This document shows, piece after piece, positions 30,300 to 35,700 of a stretch of DNA of 64,000 bases; position 1 is the stretch's first letter, and every line of letters starts with the position of its first letter. The notes under the pieces are model-generated. The model ran no database searches and had not been told where the DNA came from. It was given only the letters and a program-made list of their open reading frames with translations. The position numbers and the translations under genes were made by a program. Origin of the DNA: Streptomyces pactum (lineage in GTDB: Bacteria > Actinomycetota > Actinomycetes > Streptomycetales > Streptomycetaceae); assembly GCF_002005225.1 (NCBI RefSeq), contig NZ_CP019724.1:620001-684000 (forward strand), read 5' to 3'.

Positions 30300-31730
30300 T
30301 CAGTCCGCCGCGCGGCTCGCTCCCGCCGTCGGCCGGGCCTGCCGGCGCCTGGCGGGCGCCTGAGAGGCCACCCGTACGCACAGCGCCATGAGCGCGACCA
30401 GCGACGCGAGTACGGCGACCGCGACGGCGATCCAGGTGGGCGCGAGGGTGAGGTCCACGGCCGGGGACACTCGGGCCGACGGTGTCGTGCTGCCGTAGAG
30501 CCTGGCCGCGGCCAGCGCCGCCGGTCCCACGACCGCCGCGGCGAGCAGCGGTACGGCGGGTCGTACGGTCAGCAGCAGGGCCAGCACCAGGCAGAGCGCC
30601 GACAGTCCGAGGGCGGCCCCGTAGGCGCGGGCGGAGGCGTCGTTGTGGTGCAGTGGGAAGTAGGCCACGCCGCACCCGGCCAGGACGGCCGCGGTGAGCC
30701 AGACCGACCAGGCCGCACCCCGGGCGGACCGGCGCGCCGCACGGTCTCGGGGCGCGGGGTCACGGGTCGCGGGGTCGCGGTCATGTGACGCGGGGTCCCG
30801 CTCGCGCGACGCGCGGTCCTGGTTGCGGTCACGTCGCCGGCGGCCCAGGCGCGGTGTCCTGCGGCCTTCGCGGCCACGGCGGTCGGCCGCGGCGAAGGCG
30901 CCGGCCAGTCCCGCCGGACGGTGGGTGGGCTCCGGCTCGTCGTCGGCGGTTGTGTCCAGGGCCGCCCGCAGGTGCCGGGCGTCGGGGCGGTCCGGGCGTA
31001 CCCGTCCGTCCATGGCCAGTTGGCCGATCAGCTCGACCAGTTCCTCCACGGGCCGGCCGGTGGCGGCGGCCCGTACGGCCTCCTGCCCGCAGTGCGGCTC
31101 CAGGGGGGTGCGGTGCAGCAGTTCCATCAGCCGGGTGACGTCCTCGACCGAACGGCACTCCGCCGCCGCCCGGATCGCCTCGTCCGCGCTGTCCGACTGG
31201 CGCGGCGGCCGGGTCAGCAGGCCGACCAGCCGGGTGACGTCCTCGACGGAGCGGTTCACGCCGACGGCGCGCAGCGCGTCGATGGTGGCCTGCGCGTACC
31301 GGGGTGACTGCTCCAGCGTCGTGATCAGGTCGACCACCTCCTCCAGCGGCCGGTCGGCCACGGCGGCCCGCACCAGGTCGCCGACGGGATCGCCGAACTC
31401 GCGCACCACCGCGTCGTGGGGAACGGGTTCCTGGACGGAGGTCTCCTCGGGGAAGGGCTCCCGCGGGACGGGGGCGGGTTCACGGGGGACGGGCGGGGGT
31501 TTTGCGGCTGCGGGCTGGACTGCCTGGGGAGCAGGTGACTGGCGGGCGGGTGACTGGGGGGCGGGTGTAGGGGCGGCCGAGGGGTGGACGCTCGACACCT
31601 CGGCGTCGGCTCGCCCGGCCGACGGACGCACCGGGTGCGTGCCGGTGGCCGTGGTCGTCTCCCCGGTGGGCAGGTCCACGGCGGATATGGCGTACTCGGG
31701 CGAACGGGGTGCTGAAGAGCCGGTAGTCAT
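30300..31730 (-). CDS. Membrane protein with helical-repeat cytoplasmic domain
   Basis: A 476-residue protein of unknown function. Residues 1-105 are Pro/Ala-rich and probably disordered. From about 110 to 260 there are four related helical units of roughly 35-40 residues, visible as RPLEEVVDLITTLE, RSVEDVTRLVGLL, RSVEDVTRLMELL and RPVEELVELIGQL. Next comes a strongly charged low-complexity stretch (DRNQDRASRERDPASHDRDP). The C-terminus has four predicted membrane helices (about 350-460). The ATG at 31730 has GGAGAG upstream; a longer frame from 31877 adds unlikely sequence. The repeats suggest a protein-binding scaffold anchored to the membrane. Divergent from the YkvA-like gene. Confidence 0.75.
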   Translation of the reverse strand: MTTGSSAPRSPEYAISAVDLPTGETTTATGTHPVRPSAGRADAEVSSVHPSAAPTPAPQSPARQSPAPQAVQPAAAKPPPVPREPAPVPREPFPEETSVQEPVPHDAVVREFGDPVGDLVRAAVADRPLEEVVDLITTLEQSPRYAQATIDALRAVGVNRSVEDVTRLVGLLTRPPRQSDSADEAIRAAAECRSVEDVTRLMELLHRTPLEPHCGQEAVRAAATGRPVEELVELIGQLAMDGRVRPDRPDARHLRAALDTTADDEPEPTHRPAGLAGAFAAADRRGREGRRTPRLGRRRRDRNQDRASRERDPASHDRDPATRDPAPRDRAARRSARGAAWSVWLTAAVLAGCGVAYFPLHHNDASARAYGAALGLSALCLVLALLLTVRPAVPLLAAAVVGPAALAAARLYGSTTPSARVSPAVDLTLAPTWIAVAVAVLASLVALMALCVRVASQAPARRRQARPTAGASRAAD

Positions 31731-31949: not shown

Positions 31950-32273
31950 GTGGATACGACCACGATGGTGATCGCCGCGGTGGTGCTGCTCGCGGCAGCC
32001 GTCCTCGCGGCGGCGGTCGGCGTCCTGGTGCGGCTGGTCCGCACCCGGCGGGACCTCCGACGGGCCGGGCTGCCCACCGGTCCGAGGTGGGTCTTCTGGG
32101 GCGCCGTCCTCTACTTGGTACTGCCGGCCGACCTGGTGCCCGATCCCGTCTACCTGGACGACATCGGTGTACTGCTCCTCGCCCTGCGCTCCGCGCGCGG
32201 CTCTGTCGGCGGGCGGAGGGAGACCGCGGACCGGCGGGAAAGCACCGGCCCGCCTCATGACTACGCTGCGTAA
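31950..32273 (+). CDS. YkvA-like (DUF1232) small membrane protein
   Basis: A 107-residue protein beginning at GTG directly after GAGGGG. The first 30 residues form one membrane helix (MVIAAVVLLAAAVLAAAVGV). The DUF1232 signature follows as LYLVLPADLVPDPVYLDDIG near 60-80, with its conserved Pro, Asp and acidic residues. The C-terminal 25 residues are hydrophilic. The family is widespread and functionally uncharacterised. The graspetide precursor begins 120 bp downstream on the same strand, behind its own likely promoter, so co-transcription is possible but not required. Frames starting upstream at 31848 lack a ribosome-binding site. Confidence 0.82.
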   Translation: MDTTTMVIAAVVLLAAAVLAAAVGVLVRLVRTRRDLRRAGLPTGPRWVFWGAVLYLVLPADLVPDPVYLDDIGVLLLALRSARGSVGGRRETADRRESTGPPHDYAA

Positions 32274-32304
32274 GGAAACCAATCACCCGTTCGATTCGTA
32301 TAAG
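32274..32304 (+). promoter_or_regulatory. Possible promoter of the graspetide operon
   Basis: An AT-richer patch holds TATAAG at 32299-32304, 88 bases before the precursor ATG. GGAAAC at 32274-32279 sits at a distance compatible with an ECF-type -35 paired with CGTAT at 32297. Both readings are tentative. Confidence 0.35.
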
Positions 32305-32392
32305 TCTCTGGAAGCCGAAGGCAGTCGGCGGACCAGGCGACGGCGCAAAGGAACCATCGCCTGCTCGGCGCAGCACCGACCAGGGAGAGACG

Positions 32393-32584
32393 ATGAAACC
32401 GTTCGCGCTCAACTACGCACGCCCGGCAGTGGAGTTGGACGCCACGACTCCGTACGTCTACGACTCCGGGCTGCAGTTGAACGTGCTTTCGGACGGGCGG
32501 GTGGCCGCCTGTGACCACGCCTTGTTGAGAGACCTGGGGACCACGACCTCCACCGCGGGGTCGAAGACTCACTTCGACGACTGA
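32393..32584 (+). CDS. tgmA: Graspetide (ATP-grasp-modified RiPP) precursor peptide
   Basis: A 63-residue ribosomal precursor for an omega-ester/amide cross-linked peptide. The N-terminus MKPFALNYARPA carries the PFAL..ARP leader motif of the actinobacterial grasp-target family. The C-terminus LGTTTSTAGSKTHFDD is a plausible core. It has a run of Thr/Ser donors (50-54, 57, 59), Lys58 and two terminal acceptors Asp62 and Asp63, so at most two side-chain esters or amides to those aspartates are expected. AGGGAGAG precedes the ATG. The cognate ATP-grasp ligase starts 16 bp downstream. No protease or transporter is adjacent. The recognition is from family knowledge; the product structure is unknown. 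Confidence 0.9.
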   Translation: MKPFALNYARPAVELDATTPYVYDSGLQLNVLSDGRVAACDHALLRDLGTTTSTAGSKTHFDD

Positions 32585-32600
32585 ACACGGGCCGTCGAGA

Positions 32601-33587
32601 ATGACCGTCTTGATCCTGACCTGTGAAGAGGACGTCACCGCCGACATGGTGGTGGTGCACCTGAACGCGTCGGGTGTACCGGTGGTCCGCCTGGACCCCG
32701 CCGACCTGACCGACTCCGTCGCGCTCTCCGGCGAGTTCGTGCACGGCTCGTTCCGGGGCCATCTGTCCTCGGGGGGCCGCCTGGTGAGCATCGGCGGGCT
32801 GCGGTCCGTCTGGGTGCGCAGGCCGGGCGGCGCGGCCACGCGGGCCGCCGAGCCCTCCGCGTGGCTGACCGAGGAGTCCGGGCAGGCGCTCTACGGCATG
32901 CTCCGTGACTGCGGGGCGCGCTGGATGAACCAGCCCGACGCGGCGCACCGGGCCCGGTACAAGCCGTGGCAACTGCGTCTCGCGCAGCAGTGCGGGCTGC
33001 CCGTGCCGGCGACGCTGATCACGACGTTCCCACGCGCCGCCCGGGAGTTCGCCGAGCGCTACCCGGACCTGGTCGTCAAGCCCGTCTCGGGCGCGCATCC
33101 GCAGGACCCGCCCCTGGCGGTGCCGACCAGCAGGGTGCCGCCCGAGGCCGACTTCTCCGCCGTCGCCCACGGCCCGACGCTGCTGCAACGCCGGGTCGCC
33201 AAGCGTGCCGACATCCGTCTCACGGTCGTCGGCGACGAGTTGCTGGCCGCGCGCAAGACGACCCTCGCGGGCCTGGACCCCGACGACGTGGACGTCCGAT
33301 TCTCGGCGTCCCCCGAGCCGTGGCGGCCCGCCGAGGTGCCGCCCCGCGTCGCCGAGGCCGTCCGCGCCTACCTCCGCGCGGCGGGACTGGCCTACGGTGC
33401 CCTCGACTTCGCCGAGGACGGCGACGGAACCTGGTGGTTCCTGGAGTGCAACCAGTCGGGGCAGTTCGGCTTCGTCGAGGTGGACACCGGTCAGCCGATC
33501 GCCCGCACCATCGCCGAGTGGCTGGCCCGGCCCGGCGCCGGGGATCCGGTGGACGCCGGCGGCCCGGGCACGACGGCCGTCGGATGA
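32601..33587 (+). CDS. tgmB: ATP-grasp peptide maturase (MvdD/TgmB family)
   Basis: A 328-residue ATP-grasp ligase expected to activate acidic side chains of the precursor as acyl-phosphates and join them to Thr, Ser or Lys. The N-terminal lobe has the MvdD-like start (VLILTCEEDVTADMVVVHLN) and WVRRPG near 71. The ATP-binding Lys160 lies in LVVKPVSGA. Metal-binding residues are in LDFAEDGDG (Asp269) and FLECNQSGQFGF (Glu282, Asn284). It directly follows the precursor gene. Its stop overlaps the start of a 32-codon frame where a TgmC-type methyltransferase is expected in related clusters but is not found. The enzyme looks intact. Confidence 0.93.
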   Translation: MTVLILTCEEDVTADMVVVHLNASGVPVVRLDPADLTDSVALSGEFVHGSFRGHLSSGGRLVSIGGLRSVWVRRPGGAATRAAEPSAWLTEESGQALYGMLRDCGARWMNQPDAAHRARYKPWQLRLAQQCGLPVPATLITTFPRAAREFAERYPDLVVKPVSGAHPQDPPLAVPTSRVPPEADFSAVAHGPTLLQRRVAKRADIRLTVVGDELLAARKTTLAGLDPDDVDVRFSASPEPWRPAEVPPRVAEAVRAYLRAAGLAYGALDFAEDGDGTWWFLECNQSGQFGFVEVDTGQPIARTIAEWLARPGAGDPVDAGGPGTTAVG

Positions 33588-33682
33588 GTGCGGTGCACCG
33601 CACTGCCGCCACCGACGACGGCACCGCACACGCCTTCGCGGCAGTGAGGGAGGGCGTGGCGTACCCGGTGTCCGCGGTCTGA
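33584..33682 (+). CDS. Short frame coupled to the ATP-grasp gene, possible peptide or remnant
   Basis: A 32-codon frame starting at the ATGA overlap with the maturase stop, encoding MSAVHRTAATDDGTAHAFAA and a short VREGVAYPVSAV end. It has no leader motif like the precursor and no enzyme motif. In related clusters this position holds a methyltransferase gene, so this may be the eroded start of one, a small accessory peptide, or chance. I see no similarity strong enough to choose. Confidence 0.3.
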   Translation: MSAVHRTAATDDGTAHAFAAVREGVAYPVSAV

Positions 33683-34525: not shown

Positions 34526-34731
34526 CGGTCGGAGCTCCGGTGGGCAGGTTCGGTGGAATGCGGTGGGAGCCACGCTAGGAAGCGGCCGGGTGATCGCACA
34601 GAGGCTGAAATGACAGCTTCCAACGGATTCTCGCCAACGCCCTCACCAGGGGGTGATGGACCGGAAGAAGGCGGAGCGGGCGGTGTGCGCGGGGTTCTGG
34701 CCCCGGCGGGAACCCGCCTATCGTGGCGGTC

Positions 34732-35700
34732 ATGCATTGCGTGGCGATCCTGGTCCTCGACGACGTCGTGCCGTTCGACATGGCGGCGCCCATGCAGGCG
34801 TTCGACTGGACGCGGCTGCCCGACGGGCGCCGCCCGTACCGGGTCCGGCTGTGCGCGGAGTCGCCCGAGGTGCGCACGGAGGGGCTCGCCCTGCGTATCG
34901 ACCGGGGTCTGGAGGCTCTGGAATCCGCCGACACGATCATCGTGCCGGGCCGCTCGGAGGAGCACGGCCCGCCCTCGGAGCGGGTCCTCGCGGCGCTGCG
35001 GAGGGCGGCCGGCGCCGGTACGCGGATCGCGTCGGTGTGCGTGGGCGCCTTCGTCCTCGCGGAGGCGGGGCTGCTGGACGGGCTGCGGGCGACCACCCAC
35101 TGGATCGCCGCGGCGGAGCTGGCCCGCCGCCATCCGCGCGTGGAGGTGCAGCCGGACGTGCTCTACGTCGACAACGGGCAGATCCTCACCTCGGCGGGCG
35201 CCGCCGCCGGTCTGGACATGTGCCTGCACATGATCCGCCGGGACCTGGGGTCGGCCGTCGCCGCGCACGCCGCCCGGATGTGCGTCGTACCGCTGGAACG
35301 GGAGGGCGGACAGGCCCAGTTCATCGTGCACGAGCGTCCGCCCGTGCCGCGGGGCTCGGACCTGGAGCCGCTGCTGGAGTGGATGGAGGACAACCTGGGC
35401 GGGGAGGTCACCCTCGGCGCGATGGCCGCCCGCGCGGGTATGAGCGAGCGCACCTTCAGCCGCCGGTTCCGCGAGCAGACGGGCACCACTCCGCTGCAGT
35501 GGCTGCTGCGGGCGCGGGTGCGGCGGGCCCAGTATCTGCTGGAGAACGGCGACCACTCGGTCGAGCGGATCGCGCGGCAGGCGGGATTCGGCTCCCCCAC
35601 GGCATTCCGGGAGCGGTTCCGCCGGGTGGTCGGCACGACTCCGTACGCCTATCGCGCGGCGTTCCACGGGAAGCCGGCCGCGCCCGCGGCGCGCGCGTAG
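34732..35700 (+). CDS. GlxA-family AraC-type transcriptional regulator
   Basis: A 322-residue regulator with two domains. Residues 1 to about 195 form a DJ-1/PfpI (class I amidotransferase-like) sensor, with DDVVPFDMAAPMQAF near the start and the nucleophile-elbow equivalent RIASVCVGAFVLAEAGLL, whose Cys sits near 104. The C-terminal AraC domain has two helix-turn-helix units (TLGAMAARAGMSERTFSRRF and IARQAGFGSPTAFRERFRR). The ATG at 34732 is chosen over an in-frame GTG nine bases earlier. It is divergent from the membrane protein gene and ends at a nested hairpin. Ligand and targets are unknown. Confidence 0.9.
   Translation: MHCVAILVLDDVVPFDMAAPMQAFDWTRLPDGRRPYRVRLCAESPEVRTEGLALRIDRGLEALESADTIIVPGRSEEHGPPSERVLAALRRAAGAGTRIASVCVGAFVLAEAGLLDGLRATTHWIAAAELARRHPRVEVQPDVLYVDNGQILTSAGAAAGLDMCLHMIRRDLGSAVAAHAARMCVVPLEREGGQAQFIVHERPPVPRGSDLEPLLEWMEDNLGGEVTLGAMAARAGMSERTFSRRFREQTGTTPLQWLLRARVRRAQYLLENGDHSVERIARQAGFGSPTAFRERFRRVVGTTPYAYRAAFHGKPAAPAARA

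Follow-up and report, generated by a model that had tools for sequence, protein, structure and literature searches.

The 64,000-nucleotide stretch of Streptomyces pactum DNA analysed here (referred to as the window; positions 620001-684000 of an 8.55-Mb genome) very probably carries a self-contained graspetide cassette made up of two genes, which is of the Strep_pep (PF14404) and, most likely, the prunipeptin type and whose product is predicted to be a small bicyclic peptide. The pairing of precursor and ligase genes is not due to chance, because both have been matched by family models at very low E-values (PF14404, 2.7e-38, and TIGR04186, 1.5e-12, for the precursor; TIGR04187, 5.6e-114, for the ligase). 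As a kind of locus it is already known, being a typical member of a very common family, and the features that may be new to the specialist are the selection pattern of its core, the lysine-free cores of its relatives, and a private upstream element.

The precursor and ligase genes

The precursor gene (32393..32584, forward strand) runs from an ATG to a TGA codon and encodes the 63-residue product MKPFALNYARPAVELDATTPYVYDSGLQLNVLSDGRVAACDHALLRDLGTTTSTAGSKTHFDD, which is covered over its full length (positions 1-63 of 63) by PF14404 with 130.4 bits, exceeding the gathering score of 25, and thus belongs to the group of Strep_pep precursors and TIGR04187 ligases. The NCBIfam model TIGR04186 has given 47.5 bits at a cut-off of 25. 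A ribosome-binding site, AGGGAGAG, lies at 32382..32389 on the forward strand, and GGGAGAGAC is likewise present in several upstream regions of related loci. Per-column conservation has delineated the blocks PFALNYARP and LQLNVLxDGR of the leader (residues 1-48, 32393..32536, forward strand), in agreement with the original prediction of a 63-residue precursor with a PFAL..ARP motif; the core (residues 49-63, GTTTSTAGSKTHFDD, 32537..32581, forward strand) begins at an assumed border and not at a mapped cleavage site. The C-terminus, TTTSTAGSKTHFDD, had been read correctly as well, and from the earlier count of donors and acceptors the two terminal Asp acceptors and the Thr/Ser donors have been retained, whereas Lys58, a possible amide donor inside the core, had been left uncounted.

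After a gap of 16 bp, an unbroken frame for a 328-residue ATP-grasp ligase starts with the ATG at 32601 and extends to 33587 on the forward strand, just as had been expected of an intact ligase at this distance. TIGR04187 (GRASP_SAV_5884) has scored 380.5 bits against a cut-off of 350, which identifies the enzyme as a graspetide-type ligase, and the closest solved PDB chain, 9bou_A (9BOU), is identical at 306/328 positions, the nearest chains in the PDB being this one and those of microviridin-type ligases. A search of open-licence papers has yielded none on structure 9BOU. The other hallmark of a graspetide locus, an adjacent short precursor with a conserved leader and a core rich in donors and acceptors, is likewise present.

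This arrangement has been found to persist among relatives. In 80/80 named loci, selected as the best 80 among 285 relatives, a ligase match starts no more than 22 bp past the precursor stop, so that the proposed refutation by homologous loci devoid of a conserved precursor has not come about in this set. Among 26 varied loci, chosen so as to cover divergent types situated in other neighbourhoods, no gene family but the ligase occurs in 26/26, and the next gene clusters are present in 8 (the precursor, often dropped by the gene filter) and then in 7.

Core conservation and ring chemistry

Besides the named loci, the comparison has drawn on the 30 loci with the highest scores, on the 30 best places from 45 genomes that mostly score low, on 10 places from a phylum search, among them that of the window, and on another 16 places of divergent type. 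The resulting 165 precursor rows collapse into 151 different DNA contexts, which encode 113 unique peptides; L172 was dropped before this table was made and L171 was left out of the 111-peptide table used below, both being kept among the 153 unique upstream regions.

With the core numbered as G1-T2-T3-T4-S5-T6-A7-G8-S9-K10-T11-H12-F13-D14-D15, 10/15 positions (T3, S5, A7, G8, S9, T11, H12, F13, D14, and D15) are invariant in 111/111 unique peptides, and these include both acceptors (D14 and D15) as well as four hydroxyl residues (T3, S5, S9, and T11). Part of this invariance is produced by the search itself, because the core belongs to the sequence covered by the family model and close relatives are over-represented in the sample, and loci with very different cores would have been missed. 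Unweighted pairwise means over 139 unique 63-codon genes have given a dN/dS of 0.37 for leader codons 2-47 and of 0.04 for core codons 49-63, dS being 0.68 in both, and the mean pairwise identity amounts to 62% in the leader and 94% in the core.

Such constancy could reflect the specificity of the ligase instead of an outside target. That the core has been frozen by a ligase accepting only this sequence, in which case the product could be anything, is a credible if not a favoured explanation: the ligases of the PF14404 family do pair with nearly one core, but residues that are not obviously ring-forming (A, G, H, and F) are invariant too, and 30 TIGR04186 precursors with a PWG-type leader, taken as controls and mostly accompanied by a methyltransferase, have variable cores, with mean pairwise identities of 53% in the leader and 48% in the core.

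The ligases themselves fall into two main groups on a tree of 109 rows (quick search, close K10 ligases thinned, long outgroup branch, L114 left out). The first, with a support of 85, comprises 67 rows that all have K10 and include the window ligase, and the second (40 rows, support 85) unites the Q10, A10, and K6 forms with 13 K10 forms. This tree requires a minimum of three changes at core position 10 and of two at position 6.

Graspetide ligases phosphorylate an Asp or Glu side chain, which is then attacked by Thr/Ser or Lys. In the window locus, the ligase would recognise the leader and consume ATP in linking Asp62 and Asp63, through their side-chain carboxylates, to nucleophiles of the core, and a small bicyclic peptide would result with the loss of two waters, ring closure and ring pattern both being predicted from the sequence. 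For the lysine-bearing (K10) form, a single Thr/Ser ester would be expected next to a single amide formed by Lys58. Since the core has two acidic side chains, at most two rings of this kind should be formed, a third one through the C-terminal carboxylate being conceivable; for a different Streptomyces graspetide, PMC10787088 gives the proposal that this group serves as an acceptor. For the tryptic C-terminal fragment DLGTTTSTAGSKTHFDD, masses of 1752.780 Da (unmodified), 1734.770 Da (minus one water), and 1716.759 Da (minus two waters) have been computed.

An ester plus an amide cannot be the rule for the whole PF14404 family, because 22/111 unique precursors have no core lysine, and these lysine-free relatives would carry two esters or a single ring. 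Lys58 might even lie outside the rings, because position 10 varies among the 111 unique peptides (K, 83; Q, 19; A, 9). In the same cassette, both links might instead be esters from conserved hydroxyls (e.g., of Thr51 and Thr54), with Lys replacing Thr54 in some relatives, an arrangement that we regard as less likely than not. It would fit well with position 6, which is just T (105 peptides) or K (6 peptides), both usable nucleophiles, and with the lack of K10 in all six K6 peptides, as it would with the variation at position 10 and its repeated changes on the ligase tree; but the mutual exclusion of K6 and K10 comprises 3 independent pairs on that tree, too few changes to have any power, and the structure reported for prunipeptin includes an isopeptide bond. 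For the window locus, the bicycle of one ester and one amide has been kept as the expected product.

Distribution and relation to known graspetides

PF14404 has matched 219/392 Streptomyces genomes (215 of them above the cut-off; a few matches are weak, e.g., one inside a large frame) and 9/396 genomes of a phylum sample, all of them Streptomyces, and the cassette is therefore widespread in, and nearly confined to, this genus. One named relative (L019) has been filed as Kitasatospora aureofaciens. The core had originally been called uncharacterised and its ring pattern distinctive, which is not supported for a family of this frequency with an orthologous ligase (9bou) in the PDB; moreover, PMC8939145 counts Strep_pep among the known families of graspetide precursors that go back to an analysis of 2009. 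Searches of open-licence papers with the letters of the core and of the upstream element and with the names PF14404 and Strep_pep have returned no account of the element, and none of the core beyond that family list. Compared with other Strep_pep precursors accompanied by GRASP_SAV_5884 ligases, the full-length precursor match and the ligase score above cut-off have revealed no difference, and the window locus is typical of the K10 lineage.

Prunipeptin, reportedly described by Unno and Kodani in 2021, is said to be encoded by two genes, pruA and pruB, to have a variant 15HW, and to be a bicycle closed by an ester and an isopeptide bond; its cluster in Streptomyces prunicolor is MIBiG BGC0002725. 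With regard to these reported features, the window locus resembles prunipeptin in consisting of two genes only, in its Streptomyces host, in a core with His and Lys, and in the ester-plus-isopeptide bicycle expected of it, whereas PF14404 relatives without a core Lys cannot share this linkage pattern. The two-gene cluster reported for the prunipeptin group corresponds to what has been found here, only the ligase with its precursor being common to the 26 varied loci. The prunipeptin type is thus named as the most likely identity on the basis of these reported features and of distribution. In the survey PMC11888242, the prunipeptin cluster family counts 3,589 members, 3,572 of which (99.53%) are from Streptomyces, and this share, matching the spread of PF14404, has been counted for the prunipeptin-type reading.

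PIMT-associated graspetides, which form group 13 and include fuscimiditide and amycolimiditide (PMC13097080 and PMC10787088), share the distant precursor model TIGR04186 with the window locus. They differ from it in their PWG-type leader, their variable cores, and a methyltransferase, matched in 27/30 control loci, whereas no TIGR04188 methyltransferase has been found beside the window ligase. The original prediction of a graspetide pair without a nearby methyltransferase has been upheld, family models being over their cut-offs, but the absence represents the rule among the PF14404 loci tested: when the methyltransferase of this genome was used as a tblastn query, no match was obtained in the 80 named loci (best 80 of 285 relatives; flanks up to 5 kb) or in the further PF14404 loci tested (flanks of about 1.5-6 kb).

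Within the genome, TIGR04188 exceeds its cut-off only at G000:C1:4244282, 3.6 Mb from the window locus, and all weaker matches lie outside the window. A second graspetide locus is present there (L173, G000:C1:4243016-4245349), with a TIGR04186 precursor at 4243016 that ends in ...NTYPPTQVGKDGKVDADSGHDATQD, a TIGR04187 ligase at 4243273, and the methyltransferase at 4244282, which brings the graspetide loci recognised by these models in the genome to two. The existence of such a cluster in the same genome might suggest that the window locus is a methyltransferase cluster after the loss of its third gene; this history is very improbable and has been ruled out, as methyltransferase matches are absent from the PF14404 loci searched and the leaders (PWG..R..PY in the methyltransferase type vs. 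PFAL..ARP here) differ, as do the cores.

Microviridin ligases belong to the same ATP-grasp ligase family, and the PDB chains 5ig8 and 7m4s (AMdnB) as well as 5ig9 and 7mgv (CdnC) match the window ligase. It differs from them in scoring far below the cut-offs of the microviridin equivalog models (MvdC, 122.7 bits at a cut-off of 425; MvdD, 102.6 bits at a cut-off of 475), and the window locus has one ligase. That the enzyme is RimK-like and acts on another substrate, beside a small frame that is incidental, can be dismissed with near certainty: the one point in its favour is a weak RimK-family score of 46.8 bits at a cut-off of 143.4, to be set against 380.5 bits for TIGR04187 and a precursor conserved next to the ligase, and a grouping with RimK or other non-peptide ligases, which had been put forward as a way to refute the prediction, is ruled out by these model scores.

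The upstream element

Immediately behind the preceding DUF1232 stop codon, and 87 bp before the precursor start codon, upstream alignment and pattern counts have uncovered a private, promoter-like element of 32 bp (32274..32305, forward strand; GGAAACCAATCACCCGTTCGATTCGTATAAGT) of the form GGAAAC-N17-CGTATA. Its block GTAAGGAAACCA..CAC.CGTTCGA.TCGTATAAGT is almost invariant, the spacer included, in 94/153 unique upstream regions. At up to 3 mismatches, the genome contains a single copy of the pattern, and the looser GGAAAC-N17-CGTATAAG is also found in one copy with up to 1 mismatch. Across the genus, 138/392 genomes carry the element once each, the reversed control pattern giving 0, and it is always placed just upstream of a PF14404 precursor (138/138). 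In 130/138, the start of a listed PF14404 precursor follows the element on the same strand at a distance of 27-120 bp, with a short spacing of 27-30 bp in 28/130, and in the remaining 8 the precursor has been read directly downstream of the element.

All 138 element-bearing genomes are among the 219 with PF14404, and 0/173 genomes without PF14404 contain it. The 81/219 PF14404 genomes that lack the element at up to 3 mismatches are in line with other lineages having another upstream region. In L069, which has the short spacing and a different neighbourhood, the element is present, and it therefore travels with the cassette in that setting. GGAAAC-N17-CGTATA is reminiscent of promoters of ECF sigma factors; a scan for sigma-70 promoters has found no promoter-like site, and a promoter role of the 32-bp element is suggested by its sequence.

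A different block has been observed in 51 upstream regions, mostly of the second ligase group; it is best recognised as GGAAAGTGATGAATTCCTTACG in the Q10 forms, the remainder having degenerate versions. It is mostly located 50-76 bp before the precursor start (about 50-60 bp in GGAAAGTGATGAATTCCTTACG loci such as L120, L124-L126, L128-L130, L153, and L154). In 8 runs it has reached 14.2-17.2 bits, compared with 8.0-8.3 bits in 4 runs on shuffled sequences, values uncorrected for kinship and obtained after L171, L172, and four K10 upstream regions missing the strict element pattern (L020, L022, L117, and L152) had been left out.

Possible function

The locus is ordinary in itself and has its value as an entry point into a family that more than half of the Streptomyces genomes sampled possess. 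A fixed core beside a drifting leader, together with a putative control site unique in the genome, makes the question of purpose approachable and divides it in two, namely which protein binds the 32-bp site and what is targeted by the predicted invariant cyclic peptide. Leader removal and export, if any, would fall to general cell machinery, because no further gene is common to the loci compared. According to PMC8939145, all graspetides characterised up to that time are protease inhibitors.

Tentatively, the strong constraint on the core, the lack of a further shared gene, and the genus-wide spread would point to a conserved endogenous regulator of Streptomyces, be it a protease inhibitor or a signal, rather than to a fast-evolving weapon. 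In the K10 lineage, such a regulator might comprise a frozen 15-residue cyclic core free of any transporter, protease, or immunity gene in the cluster, and a dedicated transcription or sigma factor that reads the 32-bp site found once per genome, and the Lys-free lineages might build another type of ring system, closed by esters throughout, on the same scaffold; we put this forward as a possibility that falls short of an even chance.

Neighbouring genes and exceptional loci

A gene for a small DUF1232 protein (window 31950-32273) lies directly upstream of the precursor locus. It is found upstream in 75/80 named relatives (best 80 of 285), and a DUF6643-like gene downstream in 65/80. Considered as a part of the cluster, the DUF1232 gene has been rejected and is regarded as a neighbour, because its cluster occurs in just 5/26 varied loci; the other adjoining genes are likewise taken for neighbours. 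Among 20 genomes without PF14404, a DUF1232 match is present in 13, in none of them together with another tried window neighbour within the flanks examined.

At the other side, the locus had been drawn as far as 33682, which is 95 bp too long beyond the ligase stop and reaches into a 32-residue frame. Although a search with such a short sequence has little power, 80 related loci have given no match to this frame, which has been discarded as a third gene on that basis. Scans for terminators and Rfam families have returned nothing.

Several loci depart from the common arrangement. Directly after the precursor stop, an intact ligase frame is lacking in L073 and L074, where the ligase match begins at this point but is split in two, by disruption of the gene or by a sequencing error, and after the first of the two precursors of L171, where the second precursor follows. 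The latter locus (also L188, G303:C15:300638-301047) has two tandem precursors with diverged, acid-rich cores, GPTQSSAGSKTHDDDTD and PLSTSTAGSKVHRDDDDHEYVH, and one ligase after them. In L172 (G085:C75:18955-19104), the precursor frame is broken, with the start and the core in different frames, as in a decayed copy or a sequencing error.

Further away in the window, the minus strand encodes at 30300-31727 a large alanine/proline-rich protein with repeats and a membrane-like end, as judged by eye, and with no notable family match. At 34723-35700, a DJ-1/PfpI plus AraC-type regulator has been noted, which is FtrA-like at 328.8 bits, under the cut-off of 425.
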